Assembly: GCA_030530145.1 (NCBI GenBank)
Contig: JAUMVN010000002.1
Span: forward strand, 62,001-126,000
Direction: 5' to 3'
Origin: Coriobacteriia bacterium
GTDB lineage: Bacteria; Actinomycetota; Coriobacteriia; Coriobacteriales; Atopobiaceae
DNA length: 64,000 nt
Below the pieces are notes generated by a model. It searched no databases and had not been told where the DNA came from. It saw nothing but the letters and a program-made list of their open reading frames with translations. The position numbers were made by a program, and so were the translations under genes. Positions 52,404 to 55,166 of this stretch are shown here, piece by piece (positions within the stretch are counted from its first letter, which is position 1; the number at the start of each line of letters is the position of its first letter).

Positions 52404-52503
52404 TTTCTTTATGTGGAGAGAAGCGCGCAAAAGGCGGCGGCACGCGGCCCCGGTTTCGGTGCATCATGGGGCCAATCGGAAGTTGCTTGGCCGGGAGGCG
52501 CCC

Positions 52504-53409
52504 ATGACGACTGCTAAGGTCCTTACGCTCGGCTCGCTTAACCTTGACTTCATCTACCGGGTCGACCACATCGTGGCGTCGGGGGAGACCATCGGCGCTG
52601 GCGACGTTCAGACCCGCTGCGGCGGCAAGGGGCTCAACCAGTCCATTGCGCTTGCTCGCGGCGGCGCCGATGTGGCGCATGCCGGCATCGTTGGCGCCGA
52701 CGGAGACATGCTGCTCGACATTTGCCGCGAGTCGGGCGTCGACGTCTCGCGCGTCCGCGTGGACGAGGGCCGCAGCGGGCATGCGATCATCCAGGTCGAT
52801 AGCCGCGGCCAGAACTCGATCATCCTCTTCGGCGGTACGAACCGCGCCGTGACGCAGGACTACATCGACCGGGCGCTCGACGGCTACGGCGCGGGCGACG
52901 TCATCGTGCTGCAGAACGAGATCAACATGCTGCCGCAGGTTATCGCCGCCGCGGCGGCGCGCGGCATGCGCGTCGTTCTCAACCCGAGCCCGTACGACGA
53001 TCGCATCGACGAGTGCGACCTCGGCCTCGTCTGGCTCTTCTTCGTGAACGAGATCGAGGGAGAGCAGCTCACGGGCGAGAGCGAGCCGGCAAGGATCCTC
53101 GACGTGTTCGCCGAGCGTTACCCGAAGGCGAACGTGGTGCTGACCCTCGGCTCCGAGGGGGCGGTCGCGCAGTTCGGCGGTGAGCGCTTCGAACAGCCCA
53201 TCATCCCCACGACCGCGGTGGACACCACGGGCGCGGGGGACACCTTCACGGGCTTCTTCCTGGCCGAGTACCTGCGCGGCGGCGACGTTGCGCGCGCCAT
53301 GCTCACGGCCGTGCAGGCGAGCTCGATCGCCGTCTCGCGCGCGGGCGCGGCGCCGAGTATTCCGACTTTGGCCGAGGTTCGCGCCGCGCTGGAGGCCCGC
53401 GCCGAGTAA
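52504..53409 (+). CDS. PfkB-family carbohydrate kinase (ribokinase-like)
   Basis: 301 residues. GSLNLDFIYRVDHIVASGE at the N-terminus, CGGKGLNQSIALARGGADV (PfkB signature 1) and DTTGAGDTFTGFFLAEYL (signature 2, with the catalytic Asp) identify a ribokinase-type enzyme. It phosphorylates a pentose or similar sugar with ATP. It stands after the sugar-hydrolase pair but beyond a hairpin and 185 bases, so a link to that operon is possible only. ATG at 52504 has GGGAGGCGCC before it. Confidence 0.9.
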   Translation: MTTAKVLTLGSLNLDFIYRVDHIVASGETIGAGDVQTRCGGKGLNQSIALARGGADVAHAGIVGADGDMLLDICRESGVDVSRVRVDEGRSGHAIIQVDSRGQNSIILFGGTNRAVTQDYIDRALDGYGAGDVIVLQNEINMLPQVIAAAAARGMRVVLNPSPYDDRIDECDLGLVWLFFVNEIEGEQLTGESEPARILDVFAERYPKANVVLTLGSEGAVAQFGGERFEQPIIPTTAVDTTGAGDTFTGFFLAEYLRGGDVARAMLTAVQASSIAVSRAGAAPSIPTLAEVRAALEARAE

Positions 53410-53433: not shown

Positions 53434-53658
53434 GCGCCCCGAAAACGACGCTTGCAGCAACGCGACCCGGCGCCGCGCCCCGAAAACGACGCTTGCAGCG
53501 ACGATGGCAAGAAATCCGCCCCGCAAACGACGGTCGCAGTAACGCTCGATTGCTGCAAGCGTCGTTTCCGGGGCGCTTCTCGCCACGGGATTGCTGCAAG
53601 CGTCGTTTGCGGGGCGCGGCTCGCCCGTGCGTTGCTGCGACCGTCGTTTCGAGGGCGC
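53434..53658. repeat. Six-copy 27-bp repeat array, three direct and three inverted
   Basis: Units related to GCGCCCCGAAAACGACGCTT plus GCAGCAA lie at 53434-53460, 53475-53501 and 53516-53542, and inverted at 53550-53576, 53591-53617 and 53632-53658. Spacing within each half is 41 bp. The spacers TTCTCGCCACG after units 4 and 6 are also alike. Unit 3 and unit 6 share the variant GGTCGCAG. It fills the convergent gap before the antiporter gene; no gene is seen there. Confidence 0.9.
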
Positions 53659-53711: not shown

Positions 53712-55166
53712 CTAGCGCCGCCGGCGCCGCCGCCGGAGCTCCCCGCGCCGTGCCAAGAAGTCCGCCGAGCTCAGGTGCACGCCCTCCTCGCGCAGGTGGC
53801 GGCGCTCCTCGAGCAGCTCCTCGGCCATCTCGTGCGCGTGCTCGTGGTGCTCGTGGATGATCTCGCGAACGTGGTGGGGGTGCTCGGCCATCTCGTGGAC
53901 CGCCTCGACCGGGTGGGCTGCGACGGCGCGTACCGAGAGGCTCGTGATCACGGGGATGACGAGCACGGTGAGGGCGCCTGCGCACACGAGCACGCTCGCC
54001 ATAGCCTCATCCATGGCGCCTGCGCTCGTGGCCGCCTCGGTGAGGGCCACGATGAGCGGCAGCGCCATCGTGCAGTAGAGCGCCGCGGAGATTTTCTCGC
54101 CAGTGGGCATGGTGCGCGTCTCGGCGAACACGTGGAGGCTCGCGAGCAGAGGCAGCGCGCGCACGAGCAGAAGCAGCGCCATGAACCCGATGAGCAGGCC
54201 GGGGTTCTCGCCGACCGCGCGGAAGTCGATGCCGATGCCCGAGTACACGAAGAAGACCGGCACGAAGAGGCCGTTGCCCATAGCCTCGACCTTATCCATG
54301 AGGCGATGCCCGTGGTCGGCCGGGATCACGTGGCGCAGGATGAAGCCGGCGGCGAAGGCGGCGAGAACCGCGTCGAGGTCGAGCACCGCCGCGAGCGCGA
54401 GCAGCGCGCAGAGCAGCGCGACCGTCGCGCGCAGCGTCGGCTGCGAGCTGCTCTCGGCGTTCTCGTGCAGGAAGCGTGAGAGGCGCGAGCCCAGCTCGCT
54501 CGCCGCCTTGCCCCGCACGGCCACGAGCACGCAGAACACGATGAAGGCTGCGAGCACAAGGACGTTCGCGCCGAGCGAGCGGCTGGGGGAGAGCAGGACC
54601 GACATCGCCACGACGGGCCAGATCTCGCCCATGGCTCCGTAGGACTCGATAACCTCGCCGACGCTCGTTCCCGCGAGCTCGCGGTCGCGCATGATGGGGA
54701 CGAGGGTGCCGTAGGCCGTCGTGGTGAGCGCGATGGCGAAGGCGGCGCAGCCCGTCTGGTCGAGCCCCAGGCCCAGCAGGGGCGTGACGATGAGCGCGAT
54801 GCCGAAGCTCACGGCCCAGCACACGGTGGCGTGTCGGCCCATCTTTCCCGTGAGCTCGCGCAGGTCGAGCTCGTAGCCGGCCATGAGGAAGAGGAACCCC
54901 ATGCCCAGGCGGCTCACCAGGTCGAGGCCGAGGGTGGATGAGACGATGCCCAGGCAGTGCGGCCCGACGACGACGCCCGCGATGACGAAGAAGACGACCT
55001 CGGGCACGGGGCGGCCCGGGATGAGGCTCGCGACGAACGAGCAGAGCACGACGGCGACCATCATCACCGCGAGCATACAGAGGTTGGCGACCAAGACGAT
55101 CCTTACGACGAAGGTGCGGACGCATCTTCTCTTACCCAATCGGCGTGGGCGGCCAGCCGCCGGCAT
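53712..55166 (-). CDS. Cation:proton antiporter (CPA2-type)
   Basis: 484 residues with about 12 membrane helices of the Na+/H+ exchanger domain (FVIAGVVVGPHCLGI, FLFLMAGYELDL, FAAGFILRHVIP, VFFVYSGIGIDF). It exchanges monovalent cations and protons across the membrane. The cytoplasmic tail (last ~65 residues) is rich in His, Glu and Arg (HPHHVREIIHEHHEHAHE) and forms a likely helix, perhaps metal- or pH-sensing. The start is uncertain: ATG at 55166 gives an Arg-rich leader; ATG at 55076 would cut into the first helix. Confidence 0.88.
   Translation of the reverse strand: MPAAGRPRRLGKRRCVRTFVVRIVLVANLCMLAVMMVAVVLCSFVASLIPGRPVPEVVFFVIAGVVVGPHCLGIVSSTLGLDLVSRLGMGFLFLMAGYELDLRELTGKMGRHATVCWAVSFGIALIVTPLLGLGLDQTGCAAFAIALTTTAYGTLVPIMRDRELAGTSVGEVIESYGAMGEIWPVVAMSVLLSPSRSLGANVLVLAAFIVFCVLVAVRGKAASELGSRLSRFLHENAESSSQPTLRATVALLCALLALAAVLDLDAVLAAFAAGFILRHVIPADHGHRLMDKVEAMGNGLFVPVFFVYSGIGIDFRAVGENPGLLIGFMALLLLVRALPLLASLHVFAETRTMPTGEKISAALYCTMALPLIVALTEAATSAGAMDEAMASVLVCAGALTVLVIPVITSLSVRAVAAHPVEAVHEMAEHPHHVREIIHEHHEHAHEMAEELLEERRHLREEGVHLSSADFLARRGELRRRRRRR

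Follow-up and report, generated by a model that had tools for sequence, protein, structure and literature searches.

What kind of element lies between two convergent genes of a Coriobacteriia genome in the form of a dyad-symmetric array of short repeats, and what would hold its units at such regular distances? The locus belongs to a stretch of 64,000 nucleotides (here called the window) on contig C4 of a 2.47-Mb genome (G000), for which a preliminary description had reported six head-to-head units with a 41-bp spacing. All six were found where they had been placed: three units of ~26 bp on the minus strand, a 7-bp centre and three units on the plus strand, with steps of exactly 41 bp within both arms and the starts of the inner units 33 bp apart. 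The unit pattern TTGCTGCAASCGTCGTTTNCGGGGCG, with zero to three mismatches, matched six times in the window and not once in 100 dinucleotide shuffles. The features are as follows, with genes called by a simple codon-score script.

52411-53409, plus strand: PfkB-family sugar kinase gene, stop 25 bp before the array
53435-53657, no strand: whole array, 223-bp footprint, dyad symmetric
53435-53460, minus strand: outer unit of the left arm, CTTGCAG type, 0 mismatches to TTGCTGCAASCGTCGTTTNCGGGGCG
53476-53501, minus strand: middle unit of the left arm, CTTGCAG type, 1 mismatch to TTGCTGCAASCGTCGTTTNCGGGGCG
53517-53542, minus strand: inner unit of the left arm, GTCGCAG type, 2 mismatches to TTGCTGCAASCGTCGTTTNCGGGGCG
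53543-53549, no strand: dyad centre, 7 bp
53550-53575, plus strand: inner unit of the right arm, CTTGCAG type, 0 mismatches to TTGCTGCAASCGTCGTTTNCGGGGCG
53591-53616, plus strand: middle unit of the right arm, CTTGCAG type, 0 mismatches to TTGCTGCAASCGTCGTTTNCGGGGCG
53632-53657, plus strand: outer unit of the right arm, GTCGCAG type, 3 mismatches to TTGCTGCAASCGTCGTTTNCGGGGCG
53461-53475, 53502-53516, 53576-53590 and 53617-53631, no strand: four 15-bp spacers, fixed length, free sequence
53712-55166, minus strand: sodium/hydrogen exchanger gene, convergent, stop 54 bp after the array

The two sequence variants that had been named, CTTGCAG and GTCGCAG, are both present. Of their supposed partnership across the halves, one part stands, in that either type occurs in either half; however, the positions are not mirrored, with the GTCGCAG type being the inner unit on the left arm and the outer one on the right, and a full hairpin would therefore not pair each variant with its own kind. 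As had been recognized from the outset, the layout is neither that of a CRISPR array, with one-direction repeats and long unique spacers in place of two opposed arms and 15-bp spacers, nor, being ordered head to head, that of a simple tandem repeat.

The absence of any similar array elsewhere would have refuted the preliminary description, and about 22 further ones were found in the same genome. A search of G000 with the unit pattern at up to three mismatches returned 53 units, against none for the reversed pattern, and a relaxed scan together with a covariance model of the centre gave a total of about 23 arrays with 108-116 units. Several of them are located at contig ends, and the array on contig C8 ends before its centre. 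With 27-55 bp allowed, 65 of the 72 intervals between neighbouring units measured exactly 41 bp and four more 40 or 42 bp; with 20-60 bp allowed, the distance between inner units was 33 bp in 22/22 arrays in which both are present. The number of units per arm, in turn, ranges from one to four, three being the commonest (25 of 44 arms). Units from different arrays are identical at ~19.6 of 26 positions, and CTG (positions 4-6), C11 and GGGC (22-25) are near-invariant, whereas identity between the 15-bp spacers is 4.6 of 15 positions, which is about random. Thus, the sequence of the unit and the distance between units are what is kept. Mirrored spacers, compared across the G000 family, were likewise no more alike than random, whereas partial spacer conservation had been noted for the window array. 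Two pairs of neighbouring arrays, at L150:7040-7693 (contig C27) and L156:3924-5663 (C54), resemble local duplications.

The arrays of G000 are extragenic and dispersed, with one of them reaching 26 bp into the 3' end of a called gene. For 18 of 23 arrays, the closest end of any called gene is a 3' end (binomial p ~0.005; 18/22 in a second count). Gaps between convergent genes, such as that between the PfkB sugar kinase and sodium/hydrogen exchanger genes in the window, hold seven of the 18 arrays for which both flanks are known, compared with five of the 31 intergenic gaps in the window being of this kind. The neighbouring genes have no common function (GDSL lipase, TPP enzyme, PHP, GDPD, LytB, queuosine synthesis, PII, RsgA and others), which argues against a regulon of related genes. 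Array position showed no clear pattern with respect to GC skew.

In another species of the same genus (G001), of which the 2.085-Mb main contig was read, the G000 unit is absent. Instead, this species has a 25-bp unit of its own, TGTGCAGAAGTCCCCTTCGTGTGAG, which was found de novo and matched 95 times at up to six mismatches, against a single match for the reversed control. It forms 24 arrays, in each of which a core separates two units from two inverted ones, and for 19 of them the nearest gene end is again a 3' end. The unit step is 40 bp (in a few cases 41), and the arm-to-arm start distances are 118 bp (seven arrays), 148-150 bp (11) or 159 bp (six) and no others, so that the classes differ by about 31, 10 and 41 bp. 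GCCAACTGGGNTTTTG is present in the core of the 118 class, and TTTATGCAG...CTGCGGTTTC...AATATTCATT...TTTTGATAT in the cores of the other classes. A further motif, GCCAACTGGGCTTTTG, is found between two G000 arrays (L150:7372, C27), in the cores of the 118 class and, alone, at a few G001 sites. The footprint of the 118 class (40+118+40+25) is identical to that of the G000 arrays with three units per arm (82+33+82+26), namely 223 bp, and the other classes are about 31 and 41 bp longer, near whole helical turns. That a different repeat yields the same total length in the sister species suggests a scaffold of protein that retains its DNA layout while changing the sequence it recognizes. In five of 14 cases, the orthologue of a gene next to a G000 array is no more than 2.5 kb away from an array in G001 (rotation p = 0.016), a weak association among gaps that are not exactly orthologous and some of which have a neighbour in common. 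At one site with conserved convergent neighbours, there is an array in G000 and an unrelated long hairpin in G001, whose chromosome contains many other long perfect hairpins (L231-L335).

Beyond these two species, the G000 unit was not found by pattern in 39 relatives, and the covariance model returned weak matches only, in three other genomes out of 140 in the family and in four out of 397 in the order. One such weak match led to arrays in G082 and G094, two species from a different genus of the family (L179:4827-5114 and L338-L350). These arrays consist of eight half-sites, CCGAACAAACG, of alternating orientation, whose starts are 42-43, 29, 42-43, 51, 42-43, 29 and 42-43 bp apart (14 arrays read, a few of which lack a site at the cut-off or end at a contig end). 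Many of their units contain CGTCGTTTTGGGG or near variants and resemble the core of the G000 unit. In the two arrays common to both species, the motifs are 95-99%, the interior 92-97% and the flanks 80-87% conserved. Besides, a perfect 35-bp hairpin ~24 bp past a stop codon in a further genome (G142, L177:5155-5232) contains GGCACCGTCGTTGCCGGGGC, which is like the array unit core. Searches of viral contigs, phages and plasmids with the G000 unit, and for a phage, plasmid or viral origin of the G001 unit, gave no match, and such an origin was rejected. A literature search, mostly without subscription journals, found no description of arrays of this kind.

The usual appearance of extragenic repeats is that of mobile debris with loose spacing, whereas these arrays conserve their distances better than most of their sequence. 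We consider them best read as helically phased binding arrays for a candidate multimeric DNA-binding protein. A multimeric protein on duplex DNA would require exact distances, with no constraint on spacer sequence, and class lengths that differ by whole turns, and these features favour protein assembly over the alternatives. Each 26-bp unit would be the probable binding site of a host DNA-binding protein, and the 41-bp repeat (about four turns of B-DNA) would place the bound subunits on one face of the helix. The two rows of units, meeting head to head at a fixed centre, would give a symmetric complex, which, mostly just downstream of genes and often between convergent ones, may act as a topological or transcription boundary; this action is proposed by analogy with the RIP/IHF and BIME/gyrase sites of enterobacteria. 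Whether the window array is a member of a lineage-specific family of such extragenic protein-assembly sites appears to us evenly balanced. More tentative, and in our judgement somewhat short of even, is the wider proposal of a new class of chromosomal nucleoprotein-assembly elements, mirrored and phased, with a fixed footprint at gene ends, in which related species would share the geometry but differ in the recognition sequence and, presumably, in the DNA-binding surface of the protein, both having been replaced. The 223-bp frame built from different units in two sister species points to an architectural protein or complex at gene ends, and the arrays offer a system in which to ask how DNA-binding specificity changes at two dozen sites at once. 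Counting against a protein are those G000 arrays that are located upstream of a gene or between two divergent ones, and certain signs of pairing between the arms.

These signs belong to the main rival, an RNA hairpin in 3' untranslated regions, which would form at the transcript end and stabilize the mRNA, block read-through from the opposite gene or aid termination. The preliminary description had seen one large potential hairpin in the array, and the inverted array does fold stably as RNA (z = -11 against shuffles), as is expected of any inverted array; as the defining property, however, the hairpin is less well supported, since the spacers do not pair above chance. Along with the placement at gene 3' ends, the RNA reading gains from the centre pair of G000, where the change affects both members in 11 pairs, compared with 5.4 in shuffles (the units within an array being related), and from the mirrored units of G001, which match beyond permutation (p = 0.003 and 0.005). 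Mismatches in the likely transcript are also more often G-U than A-C (72 vs 43; p = 0.004, with two sets pooled and orientation taken from gene calls). The mirror match, in G001 and at the G000 centre pair, and the G-U bias are predicted by an RNA model and not by a protein model. Yet outside the centre pair, at the second position in G000, mirrored units resemble each other no more than crossed ones do, and the plus-strand subset of G000 goes the opposite way (eight G-U, 13 A-C). Moreover, the G000 spacers are fixed in length despite their lack of pairing, array lengths differ by about 31, 10 and 41 bp, that is, by turns of B-DNA, and the local hairpins within the arrays of eight half-sites are separated by gaps of exactly 18 and 40 bp. 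Correction of a DNA quasi-palindrome could equally yield the mirror similarity, and the arms may pair either as RNA or as DNA corrected during replication. The strongest conserved property, the exact unit distance, fits a protein on duplex DNA better than a hairpin; we regard the RNA element as rather unlikely. A known Rfam RNA was rejected, with no match to Rfam 15 above gathering score in the window or on the arrays of L150 and of the five G001 stretches searched.

Unlikely, too, is a non-autonomous MITE- or REP-like element that was spread by a transposase and is decaying without a host function. The arrays are dispersed, inverted, extragenic and lineage-specific, they have inverted termini as MITEs do, contigs C27 and C54 hold one local duplication pair each, and RAYT genes are present. 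However, no target-site duplication was seen at any offset up to 30 bp, and in three lineages flanks were no more shared than in shuffled pairs, so that a MITE with target-site duplication was rejected. The RAYTs are flanked by other REPs: the G000 locus lacks the array unit and is bordered by another repeat of about 18 copies, the same applies in G001, and a RAYT-linked REP was rejected. Nor is the 26-bp unit an imperfect palindrome, as a REP unit of 20-40 bp would be, its fold taken singly being no more stable than that of shuffles (z +0.4), even though the arrays share the extragenic, dispersed occurrence of REPs and BIMEs. Decay would blur units and spacers alike, and the retention of units and distances next to random spacers speaks against a decaying element. 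The preliminary description had considered membership in a known REP or MITE family as a finding that would overturn it, and no REP, MITE or Rfam family matched. The G000 RAYT (Y1_Tnp) gene itself, on C52 at about 19.3-20.6 kb (L159:900-2230), is flanked by its own REP, CCCCAAAGCTCTCAAATGAGAG, in 35-bp steps and with 18 matches genome-wide; by eye, the array unit and this REP seem to bear a loose likeness (TGCAAC...TTTNNGGGG..CG and TGCAAC...TTT..GGGG). G001 has two abundant REP-like repeats (AAGGGACAGTCCCTTTGTCAAC and ACGTCCCCAATTTGCG), the first of which flanks one of its two RAYTs.

A bidirectional intrinsic terminator between convergent genes is highly improbable despite the position of the array 25 and 54 bp past two convergent stops, as the units carry no T tract but at most a short T run after the stem, terminator-like matches in the region are near chance (14 vs 9.9, with a weak one inside the array), several arrays lie elsewhere than between gene ends and termination does not need three units per arm.

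Among known systems, lambda attP and the ends of Tn7 carry several phased protein sites, set out in inverted arms around a core. The G001 arrays come closest to this layout, by resemblance only; the arrays exist in more than 20 copies per genome and have no recombinase linked to them. With MITEs, the arrays have in common that they are small, dispersed inverted-repeat elements, but they differ in that no target-site duplications and no parent transposase were found and in the variable number of units at a fixed step. In function, they are best regarded as closest to BIMEs and RIPs while falling outside the REPs. BIMEs bind gyrase, IHF and Pol I and, like REPs in general, are dispersed, extragenic, lineage-specific, inverted and near 3' ends (PMC2817692, PMC3733652), as the arrays are. 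The array unit, however, is not a palindrome and has no cognate RAYT, and about 100 units stand in mirrored arrays rather than as alternating REPs. RIP/RIB elements, as cited in PMC2817692, are IHF sites at the 3' ends of transcription units and would share with the arrays a protein-binding repeat at gene 3' ends, which for the arrays is a proposed function; as far as that citation describes them, they are IHF-REP composites of enterobacteria, in contrast to the several equal units per arm found here. Finally, the spacers of Stenotrophomonas BIMEs vary substantially in length (PMC2817692), whereas the distance between the units of the present arrays is fixed to the base pair.
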